Shown here one piece after another: positions 17,562 through 56,857 of a stretch of DNA of 64,000 bases (positions are counted from its first letter, which is position 1; each line of letters begins with the position of its first letter). Under the pieces are notes generated by a model. That model saw only the letters and a list, made by a program, of their open reading frames with translations. It searched no databases and was not told the DNA's origin. Source of the stretch: Diaphorobacter sp. HDW4B (GTDB lineage: Bacteria > Pseudomonadota > Gammaproteobacteria > Burkholderiales > Burkholderiaceae_C). The position numbers and the translations under genes are program-made. The DNA is taken from NCBI RefSeq assembly GCF_011305535.1, contig NZ_CP049905.1, positions 496,001 through 560,000 on the forward strand, in the 5' to 3' direction.

Positions 17562-17678
17562 ATGACACGCTATCCCAAAGCAGGCAAGGGTCGCAAATGG
17601 ACGATCAAAGAGCTCGAAGCGATCCCTCCAGAATGGAAAGGAGACAGCCTGAGCGACGGTGATGGGTTGACTGGATGA
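17562..17678 (+). pseudogene. Integrase N-terminal fragment cut by IS3 element
   Basis: The reading begins at ATG 17562 after AGGACA and codes for 38 residues including KWTIKELEAIPPEWKGDSL and SDGDGL. The final part (LSDGDGL) is the start of the DUF4102 arm-binding domain of P4-type tyrosine recombinases. At 17675 the IS3-family inverted repeat begins and supplies a TGA. No continuation of the integrase is seen to the right of the IS, so more than a simple insertion has happened. The link to the tRNA-Pro fragment marks an old genomic-island end. Confidence 0.75.
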
Positions 17679-17693
17679 ATCGCCCCGGATTTC

Positions 17694-18569
17694 CTAGACA
17701 CTGTTGAGCCGTTGGGAATGCCGTCTTTCGAACTCTACCGGAGAGATATCTCCGGCGGTGCCATGACGCCTTTTCGGGTTGTAAAACATCTCGATGTAGT
17801 TGAAGACATCAGCCCTGGCCTCATCGCGCGTCGGGTAAATCTGGCGGCGAATACGCTCGCGCTTGAGCAACTGGAAGAAGCTCTCGGCCACGGCGTTGTC
17901 GTGACAGTTGCCGCGACGACTCATGCTGGAGACCAGATTGTGATCTCGCAGAAAGCCCTGCCAGTCATGGCCTGTAAACTGACTACCCTGATCCGAATGC
18001 ACCATGACAGGCAGCTTAGGCCTGCGACGCCACAAGGCCATCAACAGTGCATCGAGCACCAAGCCAGTATCGATGCGGCTGCCCATAGACCAGCCAACAA
18101 CCTGACGTGAGAACAGGTCAACCACCACCGCCAGATACAGCCAACCTTCATGGGTGCGGATGTATGTGATGTCAGTCACCCAAGCTTGGTTGGGCTCGGC
18201 CGCTGCGAAGCGGCGCTGCAAGTGATTGGGCGCGACGATGGCAGGTTTGCCGCCACGCATGCCTGCACGGCGTTTGTAGCCCGTCTGTGAGCGCAGCCCC
18301 TCGATTTTGAGCAGTCGTGCCACGCGATGCTTGCCGCAGCTCTCGCCCAAATCACGCATGTCCATGGTCAGCTTGCGATAGCCATAGACGCCACCACTCT
18401 CGAGCCACGCATGCTTGAGAAGACCCAACAGACGTTGATCGTCCTTTGCACGCAGGCTCATCGGTTGCGCCTTCCAGGCGTAGTAGCCGCTAGGGTGTAC
18501 AGCCATGACCTTGCACAGTCGGCGAATGCTGTACTCACCTTCATGGCGCTTGATGAATGCGTACTTCAC
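17694..18569 (-). CDS. IS3-family transposase OrfB (integrase core), copy 1
   Basis: A 291-residue DDE transposase part. The N-terminal HTH_21-like region (YSIRRLCKVMAVHPSGYYAW) is followed by the rve core with WVTDITYIRTHEGWLYL (first Asp), MVHSDQGSQFTG (second Asp) and NAVAESFFQLLKRE (Glu). The ATG overlaps the end of OrfA by 4 nt; functional transposase is normally an OrfAB frameshift product. It looks intact. Confidence 0.93.
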   Translation of the reverse strand: MKYAFIKRHEGEYSIRRLCKVMAVHPSGYYAWKAQPMSLRAKDDQRLLGLLKHAWLESGGVYGYRKLTMDMRDLGESCGKHRVARLLKIEGLRSQTGYKRRAGMRGGKPAIVAPNHLQRRFAAAEPNQAWVTDITYIRTHEGWLYLAVVVDLFSRQVVGWSMGSRIDTGLVLDALLMALWRRRPKLPVMVHSDQGSQFTGHDWQGFLRDHNLVSSMSRRGNCHDNAVAESFFQLLKRERIRRQIYPTRDEARADVFNYIEMFYNPKRRHGTAGDISPVEFERRHSQRLNSV

Positions 18570-18844
18570 CCGGACTGCTTGGCAAAGTACGCTGCGGCCT
18601 TTTTTAGGATGTCGCGCTCCTCTGTGACTCGCTTGAGTTCAGCCTTCAGTCGTCGCAACTCCTCGGTTTGTGACACCTGTGCCGGCCGATCATGGGCAGG
18701 CGTTCCTTGAGCCTTGATCCATTGATAAAGGCTGTGCTGACTTACGCCTAGTCGGGCTGAAACATCGGCCACCTTATGGCCGCGCTCAGTGATCTGCTTG
18801 ACTGCTTCGGTCTTGAATTCTTGGGGATATCTTTGGTTACTCAT
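18566..18844 (-). CDS. IS3-family OrfA (HTH protein), copy 1
   Basis: A 92-residue DNA-binding protein: HTH in RYPQEFKTEAVKQITERGHK and VADVSARLGVSQHSLYQWIK, then a leucine-zipper-like helix ELRRLKAELKRVTEERDILKKA. On the minus strand the coding sequence contains A AAA AAG (plus 18599-18605), a classical -1 frameshift heptamer, about 35 nt before its stop. Slippage there would fuse OrfA to OrfB. Confidence 0.92.
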   Translation of the reverse strand: MSNQRYPQEFKTEAVKQITERGHKVADVSARLGVSQHSLYQWIKAQGTPAHDRPAQVSQTEELRRLKAELKRVTEERDILKKAAAYFAKQSG

Positions 18845-19094
18845 AGCACCTCCTATTGGGCCTTAGATTTAAGGCTCAGAGGTGTCTAGAAAACCCGGGG
18901 CGATTCATACGCAGTAGAAAAATCCTGCTGAAACGGTGCCTCAACCGAAAACGAAGTCCGTCGCGTCGCCCACATCGTCTTCCACCACGGACATTGGTGA
19001 CGTTCACCTACAACTACCGGCAGTGCATCGGCCTATGGTGGGCTCATGAGCTGTCGCCACGTTTGGTTGGCAGATGGAGAAAGGTGAATCGACC

Positions 19095-23466: not shown

Positions 23467-24456
23467 CTAGTCAGACACCAAGATTATTTTCTTCCACCCT
23501 ACTCCGAGCGCTGTCAGTTCTGACAACTGCGAAATACGTGATTCTGGAATGAGACTGAAATTCCGCGGTATGAACAACCCATCAATCCAAAGAGCGAAGA
23601 GACTTTCCTGAATTGCCCTACGTTTTGCTGGAGCTAGCCCAACACAGATGGGCATGATCAAGATTCCTTCTCCTCGAAGCCAAGCTACCTGCTCATCAAT
23701 ACGCCGCGAAACGAAGATCGAAGAATCCCTGACGCAAAGCCCCCGCACCACTAAGGAAGCAGCATTCAGCGCTGCCAAGTAGTGCTCACAAACCGTCGTT
23801 CCAACTGCAATATCCAAGCTGCTGCCGTTGGTGACGCTAGACACAAAATCGCTCAGCCGCCGGAAATCATCTCCTTTTGAAAAATCGAGAACGTGGTCGC
23901 AGCCTAAAGCAACGGCATCTTCCACCTGAGTTGTGTGCGATACCGTTCCGATGATGATCGACGCGCCTGCAGATTTGGCAAGTTGCACGATGGAGGACCC
24001 CAACTCGCTTGTCACACCAAAAACAAGAATCGAACATCCATTCTGGAACTCAGAGTACTCACTCAGAGCGATATAAGCCATCTGAAAACTCTCACCCAAC
24101 GCTGCACCGATTGCGAATGACATGCCATCCGGCAATCGGTAGCAGCCATGCGCTGGCGCCATGATGACACTCGTTAGGCCCCCTGGTTCTACCCGTGCTG
24201 CGATGGAATCTCCGATCGCAAAGCTGGCCACGCCCGTCCCCACCGCACGGACTCTCCCGGCCACCATCTGCCCTCTAGCAATCATCTGGCTGCGTTGAAT
24301 CTCATCGTCCGTGCACATGGCACAGTCTTTGCCTAAGACAACCTCGCAAGCCTTCACGTCTATCAGCACTTTTCCAGGTCCCGGAAACTCAACATCAAGG
24401 CCGTCACTCAGCATTAATTCGAACCCACCCGCATCTCCCGCCAACTCGGATTTCAA
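23467..24456 (-). CDS. MDR-type quinone oxidoreductase-like protein, divergent
   Basis: A 329-residue member of the medium-chain dehydrogenase/reductase superfamily. GroES-like N-terminal part with FPGPGKVLIDVKACEV; nucleotide fold ILVFGVTSELGSSIVQLAKS about residue 145, a variant of the usual AxxGxVG. It has no zinc-binding Cys cluster. The start is uncertain: TTG 24456 has AGGGAG upstream and begins just before the conserved domain; a longer form from a TTG at 24546 exists. It lies in an AT-richer stretch than its neighbours, which suggests separate origin. The related enzyme at 46347 is far more typical. Confidence 0.7.
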   Translation of the reverse strand: MKSELAGDAGGFELMLSDGLDVEFPGPGKVLIDVKACEVVLGKDCAMCTDDEIQRSQMIARGQMVAGRVRAVGTGVASFAIGDSIAARVEPGGLTSVIMAPAHGCYRLPDGMSFAIGAALGESFQMAYIALSEYSEFQNGCSILVFGVTSELGSSIVQLAKSAGASIIIGTVSHTTQVEDAVALGCDHVLDFSKGDDFRRLSDFVSSVTNGSSLDIAVGTTVCEHYLAALNAASLVVRGLCVRDSSIFVSRRIDEQVAWLRGEGILIMPICVGLAPAKRRAIQESLFALWIDGLFIPRNFSLIPESRISQLSELTALGVGWKKIILVSD

Positions 24457-24873
24457 TATGCATTTCTCCCTGTTCTTCAATGACTCAACACTCTTGCTGG
24501 AACATGGAAGAGCGATGAACTTAATGCAGTATGTGCAGCCACCCAAAGCTCAGCAATCAAGATATTTCAAAGCACCATTTCAAACGACACAAACATAAAG
24601 TTAGACAAGCCTGCCCCCAACTAGCCACGCGTACAACGAATTACTGACCCCAAACGTTTTTCTTAAGCAAAACACTGCTTAGCCAATCGCAAATTGCCAT
24701 CATTTCGAAGCATCGTCACACTCGCCACAAGCACTCAATCGAACTTGTGGCACATAGTCATGTCGCCACAAGCACGCTCCGTGCATGAAAGCCCTAACCC
24801 GCCGCGTAACGCCTCTGCCAAGCAGATGCACTCAATGCGGCTGACTTGAGTTAAAGAAGCGACATTGAACGGA
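24457..24873. other. Regulatory intergenic region between divergent genes
   Basis: No gene. It lies between the leftward MDR gene and the rightward flavoprotein and contains a cluster of GCCACAAG half-sites (24724-24772). No confident promoter hexamers were assigned. Confidence 0.5.
24724..24772. promoter_or_regulatory. Three GCCACAAG half-sites (candidate operator)
   Basis: GCCACAAG occurs at 24724-24731 and 24765-24772, with its exact inverse CTTGTGGC at 24744-24751. Sites one and three are 41 bp apart, about four helical turns. An arrangement of direct and inverted copies about 100 bp before a start codon is typical of a transcription factor operator; no cognate regulator is assigned. Confidence 0.5.
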
Positions 24874-26364
24874 ATGATCAAAACCCATACATCCGAGGTT
24901 CTCATCATCGGTGCCGGAGGTGCAGGATTGGCCGCCGCCTACGAAGCCGCGAAGGCGGGCAGCCAAGTCACTGTACTGGAGAAGAATCCTGAACCCGGTG
25001 GCTCCACGTCATGGTCAGTTGGGTCGGTCACCGCATCCGACACGCCGCATCAACGTGCCGCAGGCATTGAGGACTCCGCTGACGCGCACTTTGAAGACTT
25101 GGCACTTCACGCTGGCAATCTCGTTTCCAGGGACAACCTCAAGCTGCGCAGAATACTGGCAGACAACAGCAGCGAAATGCTTCAGTGGTTGATGGATCTG
25201 GGCGTCGTGTTCGTCGGGCCACAAGAAGAGCCGCCTCATCGCGTCGCGCGAATGCACAACGTCGTTCCCAACTCAAAGTCCTTTGCATATCACCTCACCC
25301 GGCACTGCAAATCACTGGGCGTGGTCATCCACACCAACACCAACACAACCGATCTGATCATCGAGAAGAATCGCGTCGTAGGAGTTCACGCAACAGATGC
25401 CCAAGGACAGAAGTGGCGCTATCTCGCCAACCGCGCCGTCGTGCTTGCATCAGGTGACTACAGCGGCTCAGAAGATTTGAAGCGACGCTTCGCATCGGAA
25501 AGTGTCGTCCCCGTCGAGCCCGTCAACAGAACCGCCACTGGCGACGGCCATCGCATGGCGATATCCGTCGGCGCGAGCGTCATCAATGGCGACATCGTCC
25601 GCGGTCCGATCATGCGCTTCGTTCCTCCGACAGGCAAAAATTTCATTCAGCGCCTGCCACCCGGAACCGCCATCGCACGCTGCATTGCATGGTCGATGAA
25701 GCATCTTCCGCAGCGCTTGCTGCGTCCATTCCTGATGAGTTTTCTGACAACCGCATTGGGCCCCTCACCTGATCTACTACGAGAAGGTGGACTGCTCATC
25801 AACAAGGCTGGCAAGCGGTTCACAGATGAGTTGAATGCGCCCGCCAAAGACGTAGCACGCCAACCCGAGAAGATCGCGTGGATCATGATGGACGAAAGCA
25901 CGGCAGCCAAATTTGAACGTTGGCCCTACTTCGTCTCGACCGCGCCAGGCGTCGCATATGCCTACATGAAGGACTACAAGCGCAACCGGCCAGACATCTT
26001 TCATCGTGCGAATACGCTGGATGAGTTGGCTGAAAAATTGGGTGTACCAACATCCGCTCTGCAATCCACTGTCAAGGACTACAACGATTCGGCCGAACGA
26101 GGAGCACGACCAACCATCGGCGGCGGTCCTTACTACGCGCTTGGCCCCGTCAAAAGCTACGTGGTTTTCACAGACGGTGGTTTGCGCGTCAATGAAAACC
26201 TCGAAGTGCTCGACCACGCTGATCTGCCCATTCCTGGGCTCTTCGCCGCCGGGTCCGCGGGACAAGGTGGATTACTACTGGAAGGCCACGGTCATCACTT
26301 GGGCTGGGCATTCGTTTCTGGACGAATCGCAGGAAAAAATGCCGCCTTGAACGCTCACGCTTGA
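24874..26364 (+). CDS. FAD-dependent dehydrogenase (fumarate reductase/3-ketosteroid dehydrogenase-like flavoprotein)
   Basis: A 496-residue flavoprotein. It opens with EVLIIGAGGAGLAAAYEAAK (FAD-binding GxGxxG) and VTVLEKNPEPGGSTSW, and closes with LFAAGSAGQGGLLLEGHGHHLGWAFVSGRIAG, the second FAD-binding block of the FrdA/KstD family. It may dehydrogenate or reduce an alpha,beta-bond of a carboxylate or ketone. It is first of three co-directional genes with an arylmalonate-decarboxylase-like protein (35 bp gap) and a Bug protein. ATG 24874 was preferred to a TTG at 24865. Substrate unknown. Confidence 0.8.
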   Translation: MIKTHTSEVLIIGAGGAGLAAAYEAAKAGSQVTVLEKNPEPGGSTSWSVGSVTASDTPHQRAAGIEDSADAHFEDLALHAGNLVSRDNLKLRRILADNSSEMLQWLMDLGVVFVGPQEEPPHRVARMHNVVPNSKSFAYHLTRHCKSLGVVIHTNTNTTDLIIEKNRVVGVHATDAQGQKWRYLANRAVVLASGDYSGSEDLKRRFASESVVPVEPVNRTATGDGHRMAISVGASVINGDIVRGPIMRFVPPTGKNFIQRLPPGTAIARCIAWSMKHLPQRLLRPFLMSFLTTALGPSPDLLREGGLLINKAGKRFTDELNAPAKDVARQPEKIAWIMMDESTAAKFERWPYFVSTAPGVAYAYMKDYKRNRPDIFHRANTLDELAEKLGVPTSALQSTVKDYNDSAERGARPTIGGGPYYALGPVKSYVVFTDGGLRVNENLEVLDHADLPIPGLFAAGSAGQGGLLLEGHGHHLGWAFVSGRIAGKNAALNAHA

Positions 26365-26399: not shown

Positions 26400-27119
26400 A
26401 TGAGTCGAATCGGCCTGCTGATCCCCTCTTCCAACACCACCATCGAACCCGAGTTCTACCGCGCACTGCCCTCGCACATCACGCTGCATTCTGCACGTCT
26501 GTACCTTACGCAGATTGCTACGGATTCCATCGAAAACGTCGTGCTCGACATGGAAAAGCAAGCCCGCAATCTGGCAAGCGCCGATGTGGACGTGGTGATA
26601 CTTGGTGCCACCGCACCCAGCTTTCTCAAAGGCTTGGGATATGACCGCGAAGTCACAGAACGCATCGAGAAAGCTTCTGGGAAGAAGTCATCCACAGCAT
26701 CCACCGCATTGCTGGAAGCATTACGCCATCTTGGAATCGAGCGACTGGCTTTGGGCGCTGCGTATGACGAAAAGGTCAACGGCATTGCCAAAAGTTTTCT
26801 GGAAGCCAATGGATTTCAGGTCGTCAACGCCAAGGGACTTGGACTGGTGGACAATCTGACCGTCGGCAGATTGGATGCCTCGACAGCCTTGGACTTGGCA
26901 CGCGCAATTGACACCCCCGACGCGCAAGCCATTGTGCTGGCATGTACCAACTGGAAATCAATGCAGGTGCTTGAACAGATTGAACGGGAACTTGGAAAGC
27001 CCGTGCTTTCCACCACACAGGTCTGCATCTGGGCTGCGCTGCGGATGATGAACGAGACACGCGCGATTGCAGGATATGGGCAGTTGCTTCGTTCGCTCGC
27101 CCCCGCACTGCAAGACTGA
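26400..27119 (+). CDS. Arylmalonate decarboxylase-like protein (Asp/Glu racemase superfamily, single active Cys)
   Basis: A 239-residue protein of the Asp/Glu racemase/maleate isomerase superfamily. The first active-site loop reads VVILGATAPSFLKG, with no Cys where racemases have one; the second reads IVLACTNWKSM and keeps Cys. This one-Cys pattern, the loop shape (compare MGTSLSFYRG of Bordetella arylmalonate decarboxylase), STALLEALRHLGIERLALGA and the late GYGQLL all point to the arylmalonate decarboxylase branch. Such enzymes remove a carboxyl group without cofactor. Comparison is from memory. Maleate-isomerase activity is the alternative. Confidence 0.72.
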   Translation: MSRIGLLIPSSNTTIEPEFYRALPSHITLHSARLYLTQIATDSIENVVLDMEKQARNLASADVDVVILGATAPSFLKGLGYDREVTERIEKASGKKSSTASTALLEALRHLGIERLALGAAYDEKVNGIAKSFLEANGFQVVNAKGLGLVDNLTVGRLDASTALDLARAIDTPDAQAIVLACTNWKSMQVLEQIERELGKPVLSTTQVCIWAALRMMNETRAIAGYGQLLRSLAPALQD

Positions 27120-27230: not shown

Positions 27231-28202
27231 ATGTTGACCCGCCGAAACTTCTCAACCGCCACAACGTTGGGACTTGCGCTTTCCCCACTGTCGTTGCGCG
27301 CGCAGAACTATCCAACTCGTCCGATTTCCGTATGGGTTGGATACCCGCCTGGCGGAGGCACTGATGTCACGGCGCGCATCATCACCGCACAGATGTCCAT
27401 CCAACTTGGACAGCCTATCGTGGTTGAAAACAAGCCCGGCGTGGCTGGCGCGCTGGCTGCGACGCAGATCGCGCGCGCACCTGCTGACGGGTACTCGATA
27501 CTGCTGAATGCAAGCGGCGCATTCATCAACATGGTTTTGCGCTCCGGCTTCAAATACAACCCATCCAACGAGTGCACGCCGATCGCATCGGTTGCGCAGG
27601 CTCCCGTGGTGCTAGTGGTCAACAACGACCTTCCAGCCAACGATGTGAATGACTTCATCAGACTCGCCAAAGACAAGCCCGACAGCATCAGCTACGGCTC
27701 GGATGGACTTGCAGGAACCACACAACTCAGCGCAGAGTTCTTCAGCAAGATCGCTGGAATCCGAATGCTGCATGTCCCGTTCAAAGGCGCAGGCCCCAGC
27801 GTCATGGCGACAGTTGCAGGGCAAGTCAACGCCAACTTTCCGACACTTCCATCGGCCATGGCGATGATCCGCGCAAAGCGAGTGAAACCACTGGCCGTCA
27901 GCGGTCTCACGCGTACCAAGATACTTCCGGATGTACCCACCTTTGAGGAACTGGGACATCGTGGTTTTGATTTCCTGTGCTGGTTCGGATTCGTGGGCCC
28001 CAAAGGCATCGCGCCATCCATAGTCGAACGGCTCAATGCCGCGACGCAGCAATCGCTTCAACAGCCCGAGGTGATCAAGTCCATCCAGAATCAGGGCATG
28101 GAAGTCAAGTTGAGTACGCCAACGGAATGGTTGCACTTCATGATGAAGGATGCGAAGAACATCGAGCGCATGGCCAAGGTATCGAACCTTCAGATTTCAT
28201 GA
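27231..28202 (+). CDS. Bug/TctC-family periplasmic solute-binding protein
   Basis: A 323-residue exported protein of the tripartite tricarboxylate receptor type, greatly expanded in Burkholderiales. A twin-arginine-like MLTRRNFSTATTLGLALSPL opens the signal peptide, with likely cleavage after LRAQ. WVGYPPGGGTDVTARIIT, VVENKPGVAGALAA and ADGYSILL are the standard Bug carboxylate-binding blocks. No TctA/TctB membrane genes are nearby, which is common for Bug proteins. It probably binds a carboxylate handled by the two upstream enzymes. Confidence 0.92.
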   Translation: MLTRRNFSTATTLGLALSPLSLRAQNYPTRPISVWVGYPPGGGTDVTARIITAQMSIQLGQPIVVENKPGVAGALAATQIARAPADGYSILLNASGAFINMVLRSGFKYNPSNECTPIASVAQAPVVLVVNNDLPANDVNDFIRLAKDKPDSISYGSDGLAGTTQLSAEFFSKIAGIRMLHVPFKGAGPSVMATVAGQVNANFPTLPSAMAMIRAKRVKPLAVSGLTRTKILPDVPTFEELGHRGFDFLCWFGFVGPKGIAPSIVERLNAATQQSLQQPEVIKSIQNQGMEVKLSTPTEWLHFMMKDAKNIERMAKVSNLQIS

Positions 28203-28269: not shown

Positions 28270-29160
28270 TCAAGTCGAACTGTACTCAGACTCCAGCAAT
28301 GAACGCATGCGGGGCATACCAATTGACACGGCACCACCATCCACCATCAGGTCCGTCGCATTGATGTAGCTGGATTCCCCACTCGCAAGAAACAGGACTG
28401 CGGAAGCGACCTCCTCAGCGTTTACAGCGCGCCCTGCGGGCATCACGCGATCGCTCGCTTGCCGATAACCTTCGTTCGCGCCTTTGGTGATACCCGTGCC
28501 CGCCACTTGCGACGGATGCACCGCATTCACCCTTATCCCCCACTCCAGCAGATCGAGCGCAGCGCTTCGCGTGAGTGCACGCAAGCCCCATTTGCTGGCC
28601 GAGTACGCCACGCCTGGATGCCCAACCACGCCTGAAGTGGAACCCACGTTCACCACGCTTCCACCGCCCGAGTCGCGGATTAGCTTGGCTACGGACTGAA
28701 TTCCCAGCATGGAGCCCATCAGGTTCACATTCAACACGCGCTGCCATTCCTCGCTGGTCACATCACGAATGCCGGTTCTGCTGATGATGCCCGCGTTGTT
28801 CACCAATACATGCAGCGCGCCAAACTCACTTTGGATGCGCTCCATCGCCGCGGACCAGTCACCGGCGTTTGACACATCCAATGTCACGAACATGGCTTGA
28901 TGCCCCCTATCGCGCAGCGAGCGTTCCAACGCTTCACCTGCGTTTCGATTCACATCCGCAAGCACTGTGATCGCACCCTCGCACGCAAACGAATCCGCCA
29001 GAACAGCGCCCACACCGCCGCTTGCGCCGGTGATCAGGACAACTTTCCCGGTGAATCGCTCGCGCGCCCCTCCCCCGTTATGGAATGACGTTGAAGCGAG
29101 CATCTCGGGCTTGGATATATCGCCATCGAATCCATATGGTACAGACATGGAGCGCTGCAT
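28270..29160 (-). CDS. Short-chain dehydrogenase/reductase
   Basis: A 296-residue classical SDR with an N-terminal extension of about 35 residues. GKVVLITGASGGVGAVLADSF is the NAD(P) motif, LVNNAGI the structural motif, and GSTSGVVGHPGVAYSASKWG carries the catalytic Ser-Tyr-Lys. It begins directly after the GMC oxidoreductase stop, so the two form an operon. ATG 29148 is an alternative start. It may act on a secondary alcohol or ketone from the same pathway. Confidence 0.88.
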   Translation of the reverse strand: MQRSMSVPYGFDGDISKPEMLASTSFHNGGGARERFTGKVVLITGASGGVGAVLADSFACEGAITVLADVNRNAGEALERSLRDRGHQAMFVTLDVSNAGDWSAAMERIQSEFGALHVLVNNAGIISRTGIRDVTSEEWQRVLNVNLMGSMLGIQSVAKLIRDSGGGSVVNVGSTSGVVGHPGVAYSASKWGLRALTRSAALDLLEWGIRVNAVHPSQVAGTGITKGANEGYRQASDRVMPAGRAVNAEEVASAVLFLASGESSYINATDLMVDGGAVSIGMPRMRSLLESEYSST

Positions 29161-30774
29161 TCAGTGCGTACTCGCAGCGATCATGTCGGACGCCTTCTCC
29201 GCAATCATGATGGTGGGCGCATTCGTTCCGCCCCCAACGATGAGTGGCATGATGGAGGCATCCACGACCCGTAGATTGCGTGTACCAAACACGCGCAATT
29301 CTAGATCGACAACCGCATTCACATCGTTTGAATTACCCATCTTGCAGGTGCCCACAGGGTGATGAACACTGATCGCGGCTGCACCAATATGCGCATCGAT
29401 TTCCGCATCGCTGAAACCCATTGGTGTGAGTTCCCTGTCCACGATTTTGGCCAGAGATTTCTGGCGTCCCACATCGCGAACCATGCGAACACCCTTGCGC
29501 AACGCCTCGCGATCGCTGTAGTTCGCCAGAAAGTTCTGAGCAATGATCGGCGCGGCGTTGGGGTCATTGGAGGACAGTCGTACATGACCGCGACTTTCGG
29601 GTCGCAACACCGCCGCGCGCACCATGAAACCATCCGAATAACTTGGAACAAACGGCCAGAAATAGGGGTGAGCCGTGCTGGGCGCGGCAGCGGTCAGCAG
29701 CTCGATATCGGGCAGCTCCTGCTCGGGAGAACTCTTGATGTGCGCAAGTCCACCCGAAGGAAGGTCCGTGGCGATGCCATCGCCCTTGAAGTAGGCACGC
29801 CCCAATTCACGGACGATACGATCTGCGCGCATGGCCTTGTGCAACGGGCTGCGGTCCTTGCGCGCGTATGTCACGCCGACAGAGATATGGTCTTGCAGAT
29901 TCTTGCCGACACCCGGCAGATCGACGATGGTCTTCACGCCGATGTCCTTCAGCTCATTCGACGCGCCGATGCCCGACAGATTGAGCAACTGCGGCGAGTT
30001 GATAGCACCCGCCGCAAGAATCACTTCACGGCTTGCATACACCTGACGCAACTGGCCATCCTGCATGTACTCAATGCCGATCGCGGTAGTGCCATCCATC
30101 AGAACGCGTTGGGTCATCGCCCGCACTTCGAGCGTCACGTTCTCGCGCTCTAGCGCGGGCTTCATGTAGGCCACCGCCGTGCTGCAACGGAGGCCATCGC
30201 GGATGGTGGATTGCCACGCTGCAAATCCTTCGGGCTCTTCGCCGTTGAAATCCTTGGTGAAGGGATAACCCGCCTCAATCCCTGCAGCCACGAAGTTCTC
30301 AGATATAGGATCATTGAAACGCGAATAGCGTGTGGTCAATGGACCTGACCCACCACGGAATTCATCTTCGCCGCCCTCCCAGGACTCCGCACGCTTGAAT
30401 AGCGACAGGACATTCTTGAAGGCCCAACCCTCCAGACCCGGCGTACTTGCCCAACGGTCGTAGTCACCCGGATGCCCTCGCATGTAGGTCATTCCGTTGA
30501 TGGATGAACTTCCGCCAACGAGCTTGCCACGCGCGCAATCGAGGCGACGATTGGCGATGGTCGCATCTGGCTCGGAGAAGTAGTTCCAGTCGCTCATCCG
30601 GTTGTAGAAGATGTGCGGCCATGCCAGCGGAATATGAAGAAACGGATGCTTCCCCCATCCCCCAGCTTCCAGCACTAGGACTTTCACCTGAGGATTCTGC
30701 GAAAGACGATAAGCCAATGTGCAGCCCGCAGAGCCCGCACCGACGATCACATAATCAAACGTACTATTTTTCAA
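29161..30774 (-). CDS. GMC-family alcohol oxidoreductase (choline/alcohol dehydrogenase-like)
   Basis: A 537-residue FAD enzyme. FDYVIVGAGSAGCTLAYRLS binds the FAD ADP part; LDCARGKLVGGSSSINGMTY is GMC signature 1; GAINSPQLLNLSGIG is signature 2; SVHHPVGTCKMG carries the active-site His. Relatives (AlkJ, BetA, polyethylene-glycol dehydrogenases) oxidise primary alcohols to aldehydes and pass electrons to the respiratory chain. With the aldehyde dehydrogenase at 32179 it could turn an alcohol into the acid used by the acyl-CoA operon. A shared bipartite DNA motif lies 175 bp upstream. Confidence 0.9.
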   Translation of the reverse strand: MKNSTFDYVIVGAGSAGCTLAYRLSQNPQVKVLVLEAGGWGKHPFLHIPLAWPHIFYNRMSDWNYFSEPDATIANRRLDCARGKLVGGSSSINGMTYMRGHPGDYDRWASTPGLEGWAFKNVLSLFKRAESWEGGEDEFRGGSGPLTTRYSRFNDPISENFVAAGIEAGYPFTKDFNGEEPEGFAAWQSTIRDGLRCSTAVAYMKPALERENVTLEVRAMTQRVLMDGTTAIGIEYMQDGQLRQVYASREVILAAGAINSPQLLNLSGIGASNELKDIGVKTIVDLPGVGKNLQDHISVGVTYARKDRSPLHKAMRADRIVRELGRAYFKGDGIATDLPSGGLAHIKSSPEQELPDIELLTAAAPSTAHPYFWPFVPSYSDGFMVRAAVLRPESRGHVRLSSNDPNAAPIIAQNFLANYSDREALRKGVRMVRDVGRQKSLAKIVDRELTPMGFSDAEIDAHIGAAAISVHHPVGTCKMGNSNDVNAVVDLELRVFGTRNLRVVDASIMPLIVGGGTNAPTIMIAEKASDMIAASTH

Positions 30775-31131: not shown

Positions 31132-32031
31132 TCAGTCGTTTTCCAGAATGAACTCGATGAGCCGCTGCGCAAAAACCGGTTGATCATCCAGTTTGCGAAC
31201 GCAGATCTTCAGCTCCCTCATGGCCCATTCGTCCTGCAAAGCCACGATCTTGATGCGCATGGAGCGCGCATGGCGGCGCGCCACCATCTCGGGCAACACA
31301 CCAATGCCCACGCCGGCTTCGATCATGCGGCACATGGCATCGTAGCTGCCGACTTCCACGCGCTGCTGCATGGCGCGCTCGGTCTGCGCCACTTCCTGCT
31401 GCAGATAGGTATAGGTCGAGGTGCGGGAACTCAGACTGACGAATTCGTAGTCAAGCGCATCAGCAAAATGAAGGCTTTTCATGGAACCCAATGGATGCTG
31501 GTCTGGCACGGCCAATACCATCAAGTCCTTCTTGTACGGCAAAGTTTCCAGTCCTTCTGCCGAAGCGCGACCCGAGATGACTCCTATGTCGGCCACCGAG
31601 TCCTGCACCGAACGCACGATCTCCGCGCTCAGGCGCTCCTGCAGATCAACGGTGATGGATGAATGCGCGACAAAGAACTTGGCGAGCACAGCCGGTAGAA
31701 ACTCGCACACCGCTGTAGCGTTGGCAAACAAGCGTACATGTCCACGCACGCCGCTGGAAAACGCCTGAATGCCTTTTTGAAGCTCTTCCACCTCACCAAG
31801 CACCCGCAATGCGTGCTGAAGAAAAACCTCGCCAGCACGCGTGGGAGACATGCCTTTCTTGTTGCGATAGAGCAGTTGCGCCCCTACGCCTTCTTCAAGA
31901 CTTTTGATGCGCAAACTCGCTGCTGCAACGGAAAGAAATGCGCGTTCGGCTCCGCGCGTGAGACTGCTGCCCTCCACCACCAGCACGAAGAGCCTCAAGT
32001 CCACCAGATCGAAACGCGGAATGTTTGCCAT
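31132..32031 (-). CDS. LysR-family transcriptional regulator
   Basis: A 299-residue LysR protein. The N-terminal winged helix has FDLVDLRLFVLVVEGSSLTR and LSVAAASLRIKSLEEGVGAQL; the rest is the co-inducer domain (VRLFANATAVCEFLPAVLAKF onwards). ATG 32031 begins the usual short leader; a longer in-frame form starting at 32118 is unlikely. It lies between the GMC-SDR and MFS-ALDH units, so it is the first candidate to control them, perhaps through the bipartite motif. Confidence 0.9.
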   Translation of the reverse strand: MANIPRFDLVDLRLFVLVVEGSSLTRGAERAFLSVAAASLRIKSLEEGVGAQLLYRNKKGMSPTRAGEVFLQHALRVLGEVEELQKGIQAFSSGVRGHVRLFANATAVCEFLPAVLAKFFVAHSSITVDLQERLSAEIVRSVQDSVADIGVISGRASAEGLETLPYKKDLMVLAVPDQHPLGSMKSLHFADALDYEFVSLSSRTSTYTYLQQEVAQTERAMQQRVEVGSYDAMCRMIEAGVGIGVLPEMVARRHARSMRIKIVALQDEWAMRELKICVRKLDDQPVFAQRLIEFILEND

Positions 32032-32178
32032 CGCAGAAATTGTATGCCAATGCACTTGCAGGGAAGGCGCATTGGTTGCAGGGAAAAGGCGACATTTTCC
32101 CTGCTCCGCCAAGTCCATTGCAACGCACTGAGCGCGTCAGGCCCCAGATACCTAACGCGCTCGTTCAAGTCCAGTCGA

Positions 32179-33657
32179 TCAGATTTTCAGGATGAAAGGA
32201 TTGGCTGGCCCGCTAGTCGCTGTGGAGATCCACACGCTCTTGAGCTCAGTGAACTCACGCACCGATTCAATTCCGTTTTCGCGCCCCAGACCTGATTGCT
32301 TCATGCCACCGAACGGCAAATTGAAACTCATGCCGCGATACGTATTGACCCACACCGTGCCTGCACGCAAAGCCTTGGTCATGCGCAGCGCGCGTGAGAG
32401 ATCTTTTGTCCAGACACCAGCCGCCAATCCGTAGATCACGTCGTTGCCTATTCGCACGGCATCGGCTTCGGTATCGAACCCGATGATGGAGAGCACTGGA
32501 CCGAACACCTCTTCCTGCGCAATGCGCATATCGTTCGTCACGTCATCGAAGATGGTGGGATCAACGAATTGCCCACCTGGCAGATCGGTACGTGCGTTGC
32601 CGCCCAGAATGCAGCGGGCACCGCCTTCGCGTGCGATGTCAATGTAGCGAAGCACCTTCTGGAACTGGTCTGCAGTTGCGACTGGCCCAATGTTGGTCTG
32701 CGGATCCTGCGGATTGCCGACCTTGGCGGTTTTGACCGTTTCCACCAACCGCTCGACGAACTGTTTCTTGATCGAGTTCTGCACCAACAGGCGGGAACCC
32801 GCCACGCAGGTCTGCCCTGTTGCGGAAAAAATGCCTGAGATGGCACCCGAGATGGCCTGATCCATATCGCAGTCGTCGAAAACGATGTTGGGCGACTTGC
32901 CTCCCAGTTCAAGCGATACGCGCTTCATGGTTTTCGCTGCAGCTGCGTAGACCCGCGCACCTGTGGCGTCAGACCCTGTGAAGCTGATCTTCGCCACGTC
33001 TGGATGCTCCGCCAAAACAGCACCCGTATCTGCGCCAAAGCCGGTCACCACGTTGAACACGCCGGGCGGAAAGCCCGCCTTGCGTGTCAGCTCCATGAAC
33101 TCCAGCGTGCTGGCCGATGCGAACTCCGATGGTTTCAGAACCACAGTGCAACCCGCTGCCAGTGCGGGCGCACATTTCATGCCGACAAACAACAGCGGCG
33201 AATTCCATGCCGTCAACGCGGCCACCACACCGATCGGCTCATGTGTGGTGAAGGCAAACGTATCAGCACGATCCAATGGAACCACTGAACCCTCGAGCTT
33301 GTCTGCCAAACCGCCAAAGTACCACCACCACTCCGGCAGCGAACGCATCTGTGCGAGCATTTCGCTCATCAGCTTGCCGTTGTCGCGCACTTCCATCTCC
33401 GCAAGATGCTGCGCGTTCTCGAGGATCAAGTCCCCAAGACGTCGCAACAGCTTGCCACGCGCCGTGGGCGTAAGCGTCGGCCAGACGCCTTCCTTGAGCG
33501 CCGTCGAAGCAGCGGAGACAGCGCGATCCACGTCCTCCTTTGTTCCCTTAGGGATGCGAGCCCATGCACTGCCGGTGTACGGATCATGGGTTTCAAACCA
33601 CTCACGGCGAGCCGGGTTGACAAACTCACCGTTGATGAACAACTGATATTCCTTCAC
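32179..33657 (-). CDS. NAD(P)-dependent aldehyde dehydrogenase
   Basis: A 492-residue ALDH. ALTAWNSPLLFVGMKCAPAL is the cofactor region, SLELGGKSPNIVFDD carries the general-base Glu, and SATGQTCVAGSRLLVQ the catalytic Cys. QEEVFGPVLSII and PFGGMKQSGLGRENG are standard late motifs. It would oxidise an aldehyde, perhaps the GMC product, to a carboxylic acid. It lies 47 bp after the MFS gene, likely in the same transcript. Confidence 0.94.
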   Translation of the reverse strand: MKEYQLFINGEFVNPARREWFETHDPYTGSAWARIPKGTKEDVDRAVSAASTALKEGVWPTLTPTARGKLLRRLGDLILENAQHLAEMEVRDNGKLMSEMLAQMRSLPEWWWYFGGLADKLEGSVVPLDRADTFAFTTHEPIGVVAALTAWNSPLLFVGMKCAPALAAGCTVVLKPSEFASASTLEFMELTRKAGFPPGVFNVVTGFGADTGAVLAEHPDVAKISFTGSDATGARVYAAAAKTMKRVSLELGGKSPNIVFDDCDMDQAISGAISGIFSATGQTCVAGSRLLVQNSIKKQFVERLVETVKTAKVGNPQDPQTNIGPVATADQFQKVLRYIDIAREGGARCILGGNARTDLPGGQFVDPTIFDDVTNDMRIAQEEVFGPVLSIIGFDTEADAVRIGNDVIYGLAAGVWTKDLSRALRMTKALRAGTVWVNTYRGMSFNLPFGGMKQSGLGRENGIESVREFTELKSVWISTATSGPANPFILKI

Positions 33658-33704: not shown

Positions 33705-35072
33705 CTACCTGACGACGGGTTTGATTCCACCTTCTTCCATTGAAGCGCTTCGGTCCGCATGTGCTGTCTGCTCACGCGATCGCGCTGCGTTCACTTCCTT
33801 GCGGAAGTAAAGCGCCACGCCTACCCCAACGATCTGGCACGCAGCCAACCCAAACAACCCACTCTGGAAGTCGCCTGTGAAGCCACGCAGGAAGCCCATG
33901 ATGTTGGGCCCCACAACGCCACCAAACGCACCAAATGTGTTGATGAGACCAAACGCCGCTGCAGCTTGCGCACCCGTTACCAACGCATTCGGCATGGCCC
34001 AGAAAGTGACCATTCCGGCAAGGGTACCCACAGAGGTCAAGGTAAGTCCCACCAACGACATCACTGGTGACGTCGCGGTAGCGGCAATCAGCAGACCGAT
34101 CATCGCAATCACAGCAGCGACGGCTGTATGCAGCGCGCGCTCTCCCGTTCGGTCTGAACTGCGCGACCACAGCACCATCGCAACAGCACTGAACAGTGAG
34201 GGAATTGCGCTGATGAAGCCAATCTGCAAGGTGGAAAAACCAAAGCCCTTGACGATCTGCGGCAGGAAGAAGCTCACGCCATACATGCCGATCATCAGCC
34301 CCAGATAGATGGAGCTGAGCAGCCAGATGCGCGGGTTGAAGATCACGCCCAACACTGACTCGCTCTTGATCCCCTTGCGGCTTGCACGCTCTTGCTCAAG
34401 CGTTCCTTCAAGCCATGCCTTTTCTTCACGCGACAGCCATTTCACATCGCCGGGTTTATTGGGCAGCAGCCAGAAGATGACAAAGCCAAACACAATGGTA
34501 GGCGTGCTTTCGAGGATGAAAAGCCACTGCCATCCCTTCAACCCCAGAATGCCATCCATCTGCAATAGCAGCGCCGACAGCGGGCTGCCGATCAACGACG
34601 AAAGAGGATTCGCCACCAGGAACATACCCAGCATGCGGTTGTGATAACGCTGAGGGAACCACGATCTGAAATAGAAGATGACGCCCGGCACAAAACCCGC
34701 TTCAGCCACGCCCAAGAGGAACCGGAGAACGTAGTAGCTCTCCTTGCTCCAGACCCACGCCATCGCAAGCGATGCCGCACCCCACATCACCATGATGCGG
34801 GCAATCCAGATGCGTGCGCCGAAGTGTGCAAGCGCCATGTTGCTGGGCACTTCAAACAGACAGTAGCCCCAGAAGAACAGGCTGACCGCCCAGCCGTACA
34901 TCTCTGGCGTGATGCCGAGATCAGCATTCATCGTCAAGGACGCAATGCCGACGTTCGAGCGATCCAGATAGCAGAGAAAGAAGCCGAAGAGCACCAACGG
35001 CATGATCTTTCGTGCACATTTGTTGATTACGCGATCTGGGTCTACGCCCGCATGTTGTTCATTGCGCGCCAT
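33705..35072 (-). CDS. MFS transporter, anion:cation symporter (phthalate permease) type
   Basis: A 455-residue transporter with twelve predicted helices. KIMPLVLFGFFLCYLDRSNV is the first helix with the DRxN signature of the ACS family; VAEAGFVPGVIFYFRSWFP is a second conserved block; a central loop at about 215-250 is charged. The ACS family imports carboxylates such as phthalate, tartrate or glucarate. It is probably cotranscribed with the aldehyde dehydrogenase. The substrate is not deducible. Confidence 0.9.
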   Translation of the reverse strand: MARNEQHAGVDPDRVINKCARKIMPLVLFGFFLCYLDRSNVGIASLTMNADLGITPEMYGWAVSLFFWGYCLFEVPSNMALAHFGARIWIARIMVMWGAASLAMAWVWSKESYYVLRFLLGVAEAGFVPGVIFYFRSWFPQRYHNRMLGMFLVANPLSSLIGSPLSALLLQMDGILGLKGWQWLFILESTPTIVFGFVIFWLLPNKPGDVKWLSREEKAWLEGTLEQERASRKGIKSESVLGVIFNPRIWLLSSIYLGLMIGMYGVSFFLPQIVKGFGFSTLQIGFISAIPSLFSAVAMVLWSRSSDRTGERALHTAVAAVIAMIGLLIAATATSPVMSLVGLTLTSVGTLAGMVTFWAMPNALVTGAQAAAAFGLINTFGAFGGVVGPNIMGFLRGFTGDFQSGLFGLAACQIVGVGVALYFRKEVNAARSREQTAHADRSASMEEGGIKPVVR

Positions 35073-35316: not shown

Positions 35317-36975
35317 TCATTCGTCGATGGCAAGCATCGCCAGGCGTTTGTAGAGATAAGACCGGGAAATCCCCAACTCTTCAGCAACGCGCTTCTTGTT
35401 GCCGCCAGTGCGTTTCATCGCGTCGAGAATCAGCTCCGATTCGACGCGATCCTTGGCGCCGCGAACATCGCTCGACCATTTCTCGCTGGATGTTCCGCTG
35501 ATCGGCTCAGCCACCTTGCTCGGCGCACGTTCCGTGACCTCGAGTCCTTCGAAATCCTCGACATTCAGCATGACTCCATCACAGAAGATCGCAGCGCGTT
35601 CGATCGCATGCTGAAGCTGACGGATATTGCCCGGCCACGCGCTCGACTGCAGGAAGCGGATGGCCGCCTCAGAGATGGATTTTCGCGCCGATCCGTGGCG
35701 CATTGCGAATGCTTCGAGGAAGGTATCTGCCAGTTCTGGAATGTCCTCCAGTCGCTCCCGCAAAGGCGGCAGGCGTAGCGTGACGGTACTGATGCGATAG
35801 AAGAGATCGAGCCGGAATGTGGAATCACCAATCATGGCCTTGAAATCACGATTGCTCGCAGAAATAAGACGGAAATCCGAGTACCGCGCCTTGTCTCCAC
35901 CAACGCGCTCAAAGTGCCCATCCTGCAGAACGCGCAGCATCTTCACCTGCATGTCCATCGGCATGTCGCCGATTTCATCGAGAAACAGCGTGCCCGTGTT
36001 GGCTGCTTCGAACTTGCCCTTGCGACCTTTTCTGTCGGCGCCAGTGAACGCACCGGGCTCGTAGCCGAACAGTTCGCTTTCTACCAGATTGGCGGGCATG
36101 GCAGCGGAATTCACCAGCACCAGCGGCTTGTCATTTCGCGGACTGAGCATGTGGATGGCGTGCGCCACCATCTCCTTGCCGGTGCCGCTTTCTCCAGTCA
36201 GCAGAACAGGCACGTCAAGGCGCGCCACACGCACAATGTCTTCCTTCAAGCGGCGCACCGCCTCGCTGCTGCCAACGATCTGATCGAGCCCGTAGCTGCG
36301 GTTACGGATGCCCGAAAGCTCGCGCTTGAAGAAGTCCAGCTCCTGCCGCACTTTCGCCAGTTCAACCGAAAGCTCTTGCATAGTTTCCGGACCTTTGAAC
36401 ATCACCTGTCCAATGGCCGCCACCAAGCGCTTGTTGCGGTCATAGATTGGCAGTCGCGACACCACGCGCGTAACGCCATTCATCTCCTGCAATTGAGCGA
36501 CCTGAGCTCTTCCGGTGGCAACGACCTCCTGCAGCTTGGTGTTCTCGATGACCTCAGTGACGTGCTTGCCGATCCCTTCGCCATGCTTCAATCCAAAGAA
36601 CTTTTCGTGCACAGCGCTCATGTACGAGATGCGCGCTTTCGTGTCCACCACCACAATGGCCTTGTAAGGGTCGGTCACAAAGTGCCGGAGGATATCTGGC
36701 GCTGCCTCAACGCTGGCCAGAAACTCGCTCAGTTCGTCGGATTCCTGCACCGCGAACACAAGAAAACACACAGAATCACGGGATGGAATGGCTGCCACCG
36801 TGAGCGGGCGTTCCAGGTCTGTTAATGCCGCCAATCGCTTGAGCGGCACACGATCCCGATTGCGCCAGAGGTTGCGCAGTGATGCGGCCACCGAGGAGTC
36901 GCACCCCATGCCACTGGCAAAGGTTGCATTGCCATCCAGGTCCAACACAAGGACCCCTTCTGATTCACGTGTCAT
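35317..36975 (-). CDS. Sigma-54-dependent activator with PAS, AAA+ and HTH_8 domains
   Basis: A 552-residue enhancer-binding protein. An N-terminal sensory region (about 1-90) leads to a PAS domain (AIVVVDTKARISYMSAVHEK, about 105-200). The AAA+ domain has Walker A GESGTGKE, the sigma-54 contact loop GAFTGADRKG, Walker B GTLFLDEIGDMP and a late R-finger region. The C-terminus GGNKKRVAEELGISRSYLYK is a Fis-type HTH. It is divergent from the acyl-CoA operon that has a -24/-12 promoter, so it is the obvious activator. A perfect palindrome lies 30 bp before its own start, implying autoregulation. ATG 36975 has GGAG close upstream. Confidence 0.93.
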   Translation of the reverse strand: MTRESEGVLVLDLDGNATFASGMGCDSSVAASLRNLWRNRDRVPLKRLAALTDLERPLTVAAIPSRDSVCFLVFAVQESDELSEFLASVEAAPDILRHFVTDPYKAIVVVDTKARISYMSAVHEKFFGLKHGEGIGKHVTEVIENTKLQEVVATGRAQVAQLQEMNGVTRVVSRLPIYDRNKRLVAAIGQVMFKGPETMQELSVELAKVRQELDFFKRELSGIRNRSYGLDQIVGSSEAVRRLKEDIVRVARLDVPVLLTGESGTGKEMVAHAIHMLSPRNDKPLVLVNSAAMPANLVESELFGYEPGAFTGADRKGRKGKFEAANTGTLFLDEIGDMPMDMQVKMLRVLQDGHFERVGGDKARYSDFRLISASNRDFKAMIGDSTFRLDLFYRISTVTLRLPPLRERLEDIPELADTFLEAFAMRHGSARKSISEAAIRFLQSSAWPGNIRQLQHAIERAAIFCDGVMLNVEDFEGLEVTERAPSKVAEPISGTSSEKWSSDVRGAKDRVESELILDAMKRTGGNKKRVAEELGISRSYLYKRLAMLAIDE

Positions 36976-37004
36976 GTCTCCACCATTTTGTATTTTTTCG
37001 CGCC

Positions 37005-37067
37005 TGTGTCTTCGTCGAAGACACATTTGCCTTTGCAGAAAATCCATCGAAGACACTACAAAGACAC
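37005..37067. promoter_or_regulatory. Candidate enhancer site: perfect palindrome plus half-sites
   Basis: Arms TGTGTCTTCG (37005-37014) and CGAAGACACA (37016-37025) are exact inverses around a single T. TCGAAGACAC recurs at 37047-37056 and AAGACAC at 37061-37067. The cluster lies 110-170 bp before the -24 element, a normal enhancer distance for a sigma-54 activator. Confidence 0.7.
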
Positions 37068-37176
37068 TTTCATTCTAGGAACAAATACAGCGCGCAGACA
37101 AATTCCTGTACATAAGACGTAGATTTCATTGAGATTTCCACTGGCAGGACTGCATCGCAAATAGTGCGCCAAGTGT

Positions 37177-37192
37177 TGGCACAGCCTTTGCA
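37177..37192 (+). promoter_or_regulatory. Sigma-54 (-24/-12) promoter of the acyl-CoA operon
   Basis: TGGCAC, five bases, then TTGCA: the -24 and -12 boxes at exact spacing (GG at 37178-37179, GC at 37190-37191). Transcription should start near 37203, 24 bases before the ATG of the CoA-transferase. It matches the consensus at all key positions. Confidence 0.88.
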
Positions 37193-37226
37193 TTCACGTG
37201 TTGGACAACATGAGAGACAACACGAT

Positions 37227-38456
37227 ATGGAATTGCTGAAGACACTCCCTCTCGCCGAGTCCGGCCCCGGACTGCAATGCCTGAACGGCGTTCGGGTTCT
37301 CGATTTCACGACCTCAGTGGCGGGCCCGTATGGCACCTTGCTGCTGGCAGATCTGGGCGCGGAAGTCATCAAAGTGGAGAAACGCAAGGGCGGCGATGAC
37401 GCGCGAAGCTGGGGTCCGCCGTTCCTTGATGGAGAGTCGCTTTGGTTTCTCAGCATGAACCGCAACAAGCAGAGCATGACGCTGGACCTCGCGCATCCCG
37501 ATGCCCGTCATCTCGTTCAGGAACTGGTGCGCGTGGCCGATGTGGTGGTGTTGAATTCCACTCAGCGTATTCAGACCAAGCTTGGCTTGGACTACGCCAC
37601 GCTCAAGCAGATCAACGACAAGCTGATCCATGTGTCCGTCACCGGCTTTGGCCTCAGCGGCACGCGTGCCGATCTGCCTTGCTATGACCTGATCGCGGAG
37701 GGGTATTCCGGCGTGATGGATCTGACTGGTGAGGCGGACGGCCCGCCGCAGAAGGTGGGCACGCCAGCAGCTGACTTGCTCGCAGGCCAAGACATCGCCA
37801 TGGCGACGATGGCTGCACTCATCGAACGCAACAAGACTGGCGCAGGCAAACAGATTGACGTCTCGATGGTGGCGACGATGTCGCGCTTCATGGCACCACG
37901 CATCGTGCCCTATCTCGGATCGCAAGAAGCGCCGCATCGCTCGGGTGGCACGGACTCTGTCATCGCCATCTATCAGGTCTTCGGCACTTCGGATGATCCA
38001 ATCACGCTGGGCTTGGGCAACGATGCCATCTGGCAGCGCTTCTGGACAGCCGTCGGCAACCCCGAATATGCCAAGCGTGTGGGCTTTGAAACCAATGCAC
38101 AGCGCCGCGTGGAGCGCGCTACCATCGTCAAGGACATCGCGACGCTGCTGCGCACGCAATCGCGCAGCCACTGGCTCGCCTTGTTTGAACAGCATCGTAT
38201 TCCCGCAGGGCCCATCAACAGCATTGACCAACTGGTGGGAGATGCTCTCTTGCTTGAAAGCGGGCTGTTCTTTTCCACGCTGGGCGAGAAGGGCCTTGTG
38301 CCTCAGGTAGGCCTCGGCGTGCGCTTTGACGGCAACTCTTCCGTATTGCGCAGCGCACCACCCGCCTTAGGGCAACACACCGAGCGCATTCTCAAAGAAA
38401 CACTTTCCATGTCGAGCACCTCCATCGCTCAACTCGCACAGACAGCCATCATCTAA
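37227..38456 (+). CDS. CaiB/BaiF-family CoA-transferase
   Basis: A 409-residue class III CoA-transferase. GVRVLDFTTSVAGPYGTLLL and ADLGAEVIKVEKRKGGDDAR form the CoA-binding start; CYDLIAEGYSGVMDLTG has the Asp expected to form the acyl anhydride. It would move CoA to a carboxylic acid, an energy-saving alternative to the ligase two genes on. It is the first gene after the sigma-54 promoter. ATG 37227 was chosen; longer readings overlap the promoter. Confidence 0.9.
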   Translation: MELLKTLPLAESGPGLQCLNGVRVLDFTTSVAGPYGTLLLADLGAEVIKVEKRKGGDDARSWGPPFLDGESLWFLSMNRNKQSMTLDLAHPDARHLVQELVRVADVVVLNSTQRIQTKLGLDYATLKQINDKLIHVSVTGFGLSGTRADLPCYDLIAEGYSGVMDLTGEADGPPQKVGTPAADLLAGQDIAMATMAALIERNKTGAGKQIDVSMVATMSRFMAPRIVPYLGSQEAPHRSGGTDSVIAIYQVFGTSDDPITLGLGNDAIWQRFWTAVGNPEYAKRVGFETNAQRRVERATIVKDIATLLRTQSRSHWLALFEQHRIPAGPINSIDQLVGDALLLESGLFFSTLGEKGLVPQVGLGVRFDGNSSVLRSAPPALGQHTERILKETLSMSSTSIAQLAQTAII

Positions 38457-38471
38457 CAAGGAGACAACAAC

Positions 38472-40952: not shown

Positions 40953-40955
40953 CAA

Positions 40956-42474: not shown

Positions 42475-42496
42475 CTCAACGACTTCGGACATCATC

Positions 42497-50414: not shown

Positions 50415-50565
50415 GCGCCAACCTCGCGTTCATGGCGATTGCGGCAGACGCATAGCCGACAGCCCGCAACCATCCTCTTTCCCCTTCTCTTCCACAGCCA
50501 CGGCACTGCCTTTCAGCAGCGCTGCGGCTTCACTCGCCCTTTGCGGCCAGATTCTTCATTTGCCT

Positions 50566-52064: not shown

Positions 52065-52080
52065 CGACAAAGGAAACGCA

Positions 52081-54008: not shown

Positions 54009-54029
54009 CTTCACCGCACCGTGCTTAGC

Positions 54030-55625: not shown

Positions 55626-55643
55626 TGAATCGCCCCGGATTCT

Positions 55644-56519: not shown

Positions 56520-56794
56520 CCGGACTGCTTGGCAAAGTACGCTGCGGCCTTTTTTAGGATGTCGCGCTCCTCTGTGACTCGCTTGAGTTCAGCCTTCAGT
56601 CGTCGCAACTCCTCGGTTTGTGACACCTGTGCCGGCCGATCATGGGCAGGCGTTCCTTGAGCCTTGATCCATTGATAAAGGCTGTGCTGACTTACGCCTA
56701 GTCGGGCTGAAACATCGGCCACCTTATGGCCGCGCTCAGTGATCTGCTTGACCGCTTCGGTCTTGAATTCTTGGGGATATCTTTGCTTACTCAT
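56516..56794 (-). CDS. IS3-family OrfA, copy 2
   Basis: A 92-residue HTH/leucine-zipper protein like copy 1 with Lys for Asn at residue 3. The A6G frameshift run is kept. Confidence 0.92.
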   Translation of the reverse strand: MSKQRYPQEFKTEAVKQITERGHKVADVSARLGVSQHSLYQWIKAQGTPAHDRPAQVSQTEELRRLKAELKRVTEERDILKKAAAYFAKQSG

Positions 56795-56857
56795 GGCACC
56801 TCCTATTGGGCCTTAGATTTGAGGCTCAGAGGTGTCTAGAAAACCCGGGGCGATTCA

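Follow-up and report, generated by a model that had tools for sequence, protein, structure and literature searches.

A one-cysteine Amdase subfamily associated with candidate alicyclic-acid catabolism genes in Diaphorobacter sp. HDW4B and relatives

The window analysed here, 64,000 nucleotides of the Diaphorobacter sp. HDW4B genome, carries a gene for an Amdase-family protein (AMD_A) between a flavoprotein gene (FADa), which ends 36 nt upstream, and a Bug/TctC gene, which starts about 110 nt downstream (Table 1). Both neighbours had been recognised in the earlier sequence-only reading of this DNA, and their PF00890 and PF03401 matches bear this out. AMD_A also lies within a 37 kb catabolic block of lower GC, bracketed by two IS3-type copies in the same orientation, that includes a BadI-type ring-cleavage module about 10 kb away in a separate transcription unit. 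We do not claim a composite transposon, since the HDW4B genome holds 14 copies of this IS3-type element.

Table 1. Features of the window around AMD_A.
Feature	Position	Strand	Evidence or relatives
IS3-type insertion sequence, left of catabolic block	17676..18907	-	sequence comparison
MDR-type (quinone oxidoreductase-like) dehydrogenase, divergent from flavoprotein	23467..24546	-	profile matches
FADa, KstD/FrdA/TcuA-like FAD_binding_2 flavoprotein	24865..26364	+	PF00890, 181 bits
AMD_A, one-cysteine (A70/C182) Amdase-family protein, 239 aa	26400..27119	+	ORF, profile and PDB matches, tree
Bug/TctC-type periplasmic carboxylate-binding protein	27231..28202	+	PF03401, 211 bits
SDR dehydrogenase	28270..29160	-	58-60% relatives in AMD_A neighbourhoods L078, L079, L081
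GMC-family alcohol dehydrogenase/oxidase	29161..30774	-	profile matches
LysR regulator	31132..32118	-	orthologue (70-72%) adjoining FADa-AMD_A in L001, L002
Aldehyde dehydrogenase	32179..33657	-	profile matches
MFS transporter (HpaX/galactonate-type)	33705..35072	-	profile matches
Regulator-like ORF	35317..37056	-	homologue (58%) transcribed divergently from CaiB-BadI in G416 (L103)
CaiB/BaiF CoA-transferase	37164..38456	+	homology
BadI/MenB-like crotonase, candidate 2-oxocycloalkanecarboxyl-CoA ring hydrolase	38472..39251	+	homology
Acyl-CoA ligase (cyclohexanecarboxylate-CoA ligase/FadD3-like)	39270..40952	+	homology
Enoyl-CoA hydratase	40956..41726	+	homology
SDR, candidate cyclic hydroxyacyl-CoA dehydrogenase	41719..42474	+	homology
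Acyl-CoA dehydrogenase (cyclohexane-1-carbonyl-CoA dehydrogenase-like)	42449..43663	+	homology
3-Hydroxyacyl-CoA dehydrogenase	43675..44550	+	homology
Second CaiB-type CoA-transferase	45209..46333	+	homology
Quinone/acryloyl-CoA reductase-like MDR	46347..47336	+	homologue directly precedes AMD_A in L080, L083, L084, L085
Two-domain 3-hydroxyacyl-CoA dehydrogenase	47364..48902	+	homology
Branched-chain-type ABC transporter genes	49206..54028	+	read by eye
IS3-type element, right of catabolic block	55626..56857	-	99.3% identical to left copy

Judged by its sequence, the AMD_A ORF is a genuine, intact gene of the Amdase/Asp-Glu-racemase superfamily. It scores 138.4 bits over the full PF17645 (Amdase) profile, exceeding the Pfam gathering cut-off of 25.9 bits, and 33.5 bits against PF01177; its PDB matches are arylmalonate decarboxylase (AMDase) at 1e-26 and maleate isomerases at 1e-24 to 1e-20, and orthologues at 66-77% identity occur in other genera. 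The gene starts with ATG; an in-frame TTG is present at 26361, but orthologues use the equivalent of the ATG. These matches uphold the sequence-only reading of the ORF as an AMDase-like member of the Amdase family. The NCBIfam cut-offs are not reached, neither for the AMDase equivalog NF052327 (133.5 bits versus 225) nor for EutA, TIGR02990 (106.3 versus 318), and identity to AMDase is about 28%.

Comparison with AMDase followed the 12 published criteria of PMC4996985 Table 4, which comprise P14-P15, T75-S76, Y126, G189, L40, V43, Y48, V156, M159, G74/C188 and two motifs. AMD_A keeps P14, T75, Y126, L40 and C188, while V43 and M159 are replaced by near equivalents. In the dioxyanion hole (T75/S76/Y126/G189), T71 and Y122 are retained and Ala72 and Thr183 replace S76 and G189; the loss of dioxyanion-hole residues that the sequence-only reading had named as refuting it is thus half observed. 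The hydrophobic-pocket positions L40, V43, Y48, V156 and M159, together with P14-P15, read Leu, Ile, Ile, Asn, Val and Pro-Ser, placing Asn152 in the pocket that corresponds to the CO2-expelling hydrophobic pocket of AMDase. The motif LMGTSLSF becomes LGATAPSF and ILLSCGGL becomes IVLACTNW. That the first catalytic cysteine is missing (Ala70) and the second kept (Cys182, within LACTNW) had been seen correctly; of the G74/C188 pair proposed for checking, the C188 equivalent is present but position 74 is Ala rather than the Gly of AMDase. The claim that this amounts to the pattern of arylmalonate decarboxylase is not supported, AMD_A differing at P15, S76, G189, Y48, V156, G74 and both motifs. 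By these residues AMD_A is a variant within a known family that has not earned the arylmalonate decarboxylase label. The motif test can be passed, because a gene from the same bacterial family (L030) carries LMGTSLSF/ISCGGL; it falls inside the AMDase clade.

The remaining active-site shell resembles that of maleate isomerase. In these enzymes the carboxylates are bound by N17 and N169 and the double bond is attacked by C82/C76. Titles of maleate-isomerase PDB entries name a succinylcysteine intermediate and C194S/C200A mutants. Numbering was checked against NicE, whose N17, C82, Y139, N169 and C200 correspond to AMD_A N12, A70, Y122, N152 and C182. All NicE anchors examined (N17, H42, R45, Y139, N169, C200) are kept in AMD_A, including the carboxylate anchors N12, Y122 and N152, and C82 alone is lost, leaving Ala70/Cys182 where maleate isomerases have two catalytic cysteines. 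An AF2 model of AMD_A (pLDDT 92.4, pTM 0.91), from a structure run that left out two plasmid-derived rows, matches maleate isomerase (Z 35.6, the top match) and AMDase (Z 34.7) equally. Literature searches for work on the residues of maleate isomerase, or for alicyclic pathways that include a gene of the racemase family, turned up nothing relevant.

Searches of genomes and plasmids gathered 24 clade members including AMD_A, the others being 44-77% identical to it. Their hosts are Alcaligenaceae (Bordetella BOR01, Pollutimonas), uncultured Burkholderiales families and an Ancylobacter plasmid. In the tree this clade (support 98/91) stands apart from the AMDases (100/100) and from the maleate isomerases (100/100), the latter as the sequence-only reading had anticipated; a forced union with either is not rejected. 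The clade is a previously undescribed subfamily within the branch of the Asp/Glu racemase superfamily that holds AMDase and maleate isomerase. Position 74 is Ala in 23/24 members and the Cys188 equivalent is present in 22/24; equivalents of N17, H42, R45 and N169 occur in all 24 and that of Y139 in 20. An N-W pair follows Cys-Thr/Gly throughout (24/24). The clade offers natural sequences with Ala at the stereochemistry-deciding position 74 in a pocket otherwise like that of maleate isomerase. Two members (L086 9607-10317 and L089 9728-10480) lack both catalytic cysteines, having Ala/Gly and Ile/Gly at these positions; since Cys188 is absent from both, cysteine chemistry is not universal in the clade.

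Neighbourhoods are conserved among clade members, in keeping with the earlier suggestion that the operon context would be informative. Clade genes are found next to a flavoprotein gene, genes for PRISE-type reductases and for Bug proteins, and a module of CoA ligase, acyl-CoA dehydrogenase, hydratase, dehydrogenase and BadI-type ring hydrolase. L001 and L002 resemble the window in having a FADa orthologue (64-75%, also found 2 kb downstream in L003) directly upstream of AMD_A and the window's LysR and Bug genes (the latter at 61-63%) in the cluster; the ABC binding protein encoded at 49206-50414 is 63% identical to one adjoining AMD_A in L002. L080, L083 and L084 share the order BadI-ligase-hydratase-SDR-ACAD-Bug-HCDH-CaiB-QOR-AMD_A-(FADa in L084)-EthD-PRISE-Bug-FADb, and L085 has the same type of order on a contig beginning at HCDH. 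Window positions 35317-47336 carry the regulator/CaiB/BadI-to-QOR module in the order of L080, L083, L084 and G416, the window's regulator-like gene and first CaiB preceding BadI in G416. Blocks homologous to 38472-43663 also occur in L080, L083, L084, L042 and several of L094-L102. On the conjugative Ancylobacter plasmid NZ_CP083240.1 (about 175-217 kb; L042, L090), two copies of one IS3 transposase enclose a catabolic block of about 41 kb that carries the same modules, with AMD_A, FADa, BadI-like, ETF, MaoC and CoA-ester-lyase genes.

These associations can be counted. A FADa/FADb-type flavoprotein gene lies within 1.5 kb of 9/24 clade loci versus 0/32 other Amdase-family loci (Fisher p 2e-4, indicative only, as the rows are related), and a BadI-like gene at 69% identity or above is found in 15/20 clade genomes versus 1/20 controls of the order, counts that are not independent because the genomes are related. 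The five clade genomes without a BadI-like gene are Bordetella BOR01, Pollutimonas and three others; in the first two no BadI homologue was found at E <= 1e-60, though both have AMD_A and the flavoprotein. In L001-L004 and L086 (at 11302-12033 in L086) a paralogue with both catalytic cysteines is adjacent to AMD_A or not far from it, and in L098 such a paralogue stands in place of AMD_A after QOR; these positions point to related isomerase- or racemase-type substrates. Like EutA (TIGR02990), the paralogue of L001-L004 shares superfamily, similar length and the PS(S/I)NTT motif with AMD_A, but keeps both cysteines.

The gene content also bears on the pathway. Within 38472-43663 the window encodes together the ligase, acyl-CoA dehydrogenase, hydratase, dehydrogenase and BadI-type hydrolase that characterise bad/mrc operons, each gene falling individually below its NCBIfam equivalog cut-off. 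The ligase, hydratase, SDR dehydrogenase and BadI-type hydrolase are shared with BadKHI and with the mrc operon of Castellaniella defragrans (PMC4109377), whereas AMD_A-type clusters add AMD_A, PRISE, EthD-like and flavoprotein genes. The passages of PMC4109377 consulted report no AMDase-family gene for the mrc operon, and the words 'racemase' and 'decarboxylase' are absent from its text. Because the enzymes around AMD_A resemble this ring-cleavage route, an alicyclic carboxylic acid, or a ketone that is its precursor, is the most likely substrate of the pathway. A steroid or monoterpene pathway, suggested by the likeness of the flavoprotein to KstD and of the module to mrc, was considered and set aside, no gene specific to either having been found. 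The best named relatives of FADa are flavocytochrome c, TcuA and KstD, every one below cut-off. A fumarate/succinate-type role for FADa was rejected by eye, and a ketone or enone substrate seems more likely, because flavocytochrome c fumarate reductases have HTMGG and GGN/R motifs and the C-terminal segment of FADa (FTDGG...LLLEGHGHHLGWA) does not show them.

Taken with the residues, this context suggests that AMD_A is most likely a one-cysteine proton-transfer enzyme, either a one-way isomerase or epimerase or else a decarboxylase, in alicyclic-acid catabolism. The chemistry, substrate and direction that we infer are as follows. AMD_A would work as an acid-base enzyme without a cofactor. Its Asn12, Asn152 and Tyr122, together with backbone amides, would hold the substrate carboxylate or carboxylates while Cys182 moves a proton at the alpha carbon via an enediolate. 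The reaction should be one-sided, since the cysteine opposite Cys182 is replaced by Ala, and we prefer a one-way reaction that isomerises or epimerises a carboxylate intermediate over decarboxylation. The flavoprotein, the PRISE-type and MDR reductases and the CoA-dependent enzymes would break down an alicyclic acid of the cyclohexane type, whose ring the BadI-type hydrolase would open. Maleate-isomerase-type carboxylate anchoring combined with AMDase-type single-cysteine chemistry fits one-sided proton transfer, for which the E. coli L-Asp/Glu-specific racemase EcL-DER (Thr83/Cys197), as quoted in PMC12661438, is a precedent with one cysteine missing; that enzyme is distant from AMD_A (Z 13.7, 15-16% identity) and acts on amino acids. 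The full reading, an undescribed subfamily of one-cysteine, one-sided isomerases or epimerases in alicyclic-acid catabolism, is one we favour tentatively.

Isomerase-type chemistry is ranked first because the CO2-expelling pocket is polar in all members and the two-cysteine paralogue occurs at the same operon position. A cofactor-free decarboxylase with a non-aryl substrate is a serious if rather doubtful competitor; it would take CO2 off a diacid of malonate or beta-oxo type in the alicyclic pathway, with Cys182 protonating the enediolate like Cys188 of AMDase and Ala70 in place of Gly74. The first cysteine is absent as in AMDase, the residue at 74 is small, T75 and Y126 are kept in AMD_A, and the nearby CoA ligase and Bug genes fit a carboxylate substrate; the clade also groups, with weak support (92/71), with AMDase and another G74 clade, and a forced union with AMDase is not rejected (p-AU 0.12). 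In AMDase, however, the dioxyanion hole takes up the pro-S carboxylate, the carboxylate that leaves occupies a hydrophobic pocket driving CO2 loss, and C188 protonates the enediolate (PMC12576825), whereas here V156 is replaced by Asn in 24/24 members, S76 is lost in 23/24 (present in one) and G189 in 20/24 (present in four). The authors of PMC4996985 thought it highly unlikely that relatives without this pocket act on arylmalonates, and report that a test of one such protein confirmed it. A true arylmalonate decarboxylase of the Bordetella prototype is very improbable and mostly refuted. AMDase (EC 4.1.1.76, Bordetella bronchiseptica, PDB 3dg9/3ixl) is the best PDB and Pfam match, sharing fold, the single Cys188 equivalent, T75, Y126 and, we assume, cofactor independence, and AMD_A has a Bug gene nearby as in the TTT clusters of PMC4996985. 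AMD_A nevertheless departs from it at most of the 12 criteria, scores below the NCBIfam cut-off and, unlike L030, lies in another clade; it has PSSNTT for PPAAG and Arg33/His30, and no mandelate-racemase-family gene was recognised beside it in the window.

A maleate cis-trans isomerase or EutA-like isomerase working without its first cysteine would account for the retained anchors, the top structural match and the forced union with maleate isomerases that is likewise not rejected (p-AU 0.17). It is nonetheless quite unlikely, with Ala at the NicE C82 position in 23/24 members and the maleate isomerases (NicE/Iso 4fq7; Nocardia 2xed) in their own clade and in other gene neighbourhoods; no nicotinate or maleate genes were recognised near AMD_A in the window, and the canonical forms of both enzymes are ruled out by the missing cysteine and the cut-offs. 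We also regard as unlikely that AMD_A is a degenerate partner subunit or regulator of the often-neighbouring two-cysteine paralogue. Proximity in L001-L004 and L086 and the two members lacking both cysteines speak for it, but the paralogue is not nearby in the window or in most other clade loci (some on short contigs), and the active-site shell is strongly conserved.

The natural substrate of AMDase, an enzyme engineered for drug synthesis, is unknown (PMC4996985). The AMD_A subfamily has a recurring, near-complete pathway around the gene, on a conjugative plasmid and in cultured Alcaligenaceae, and substrate candidates and growth phenotypes are therefore directly testable. The clade may represent a new activity, that of a cofactor-free one-cysteine enzyme decarboxylating or isomerising an intermediate of an undescribed alicyclic-acid route on IS-flanked islands; we put this forward with less than even confidence, and if true it would be a first clue to the natural role of AMDase-like enzymes.

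Several further features were noted. Window positions 1-16300 hold a dense reverse-strand cluster that by eye resembles one of aryl-polyene type, with FabG, hotdog dehydratase, MMPL-like exporter, AMP ligase, glycosyltransferase and acyltransferase genes, and a 278-nt tandem partial duplication (54026-54303 and 54353-54630, 79% identical) marks the end of the ABC-transporter genes. The HDW4B genome has three further Amdase-family genes (L009, L010, L011); two have both cysteines, and L010 has Gly74/Cys188 without the AMDase motifs. A second one-cysteine Amdase clade from Burkholderiales (L014, L015, L016, L017 and L018, at about 1500-2200; support 100/99) shows GGTSASF and ISCTNF, has I-A-S at positions 14, 15 and 17, and combines G74/C188 with absence of the AMDase pocket residues. 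On the Variovorax PBL-E5 plasmid (L093 6186-8398), an Asp/Glu-racemase-family gene is directly followed by one for an FAD-dependent oxidoreductase, the pair adjoining an isochorismatase-family hydrolase gene near TcuA, and the pairing of racemase and flavoprotein may be wider than the AMD_A clade.
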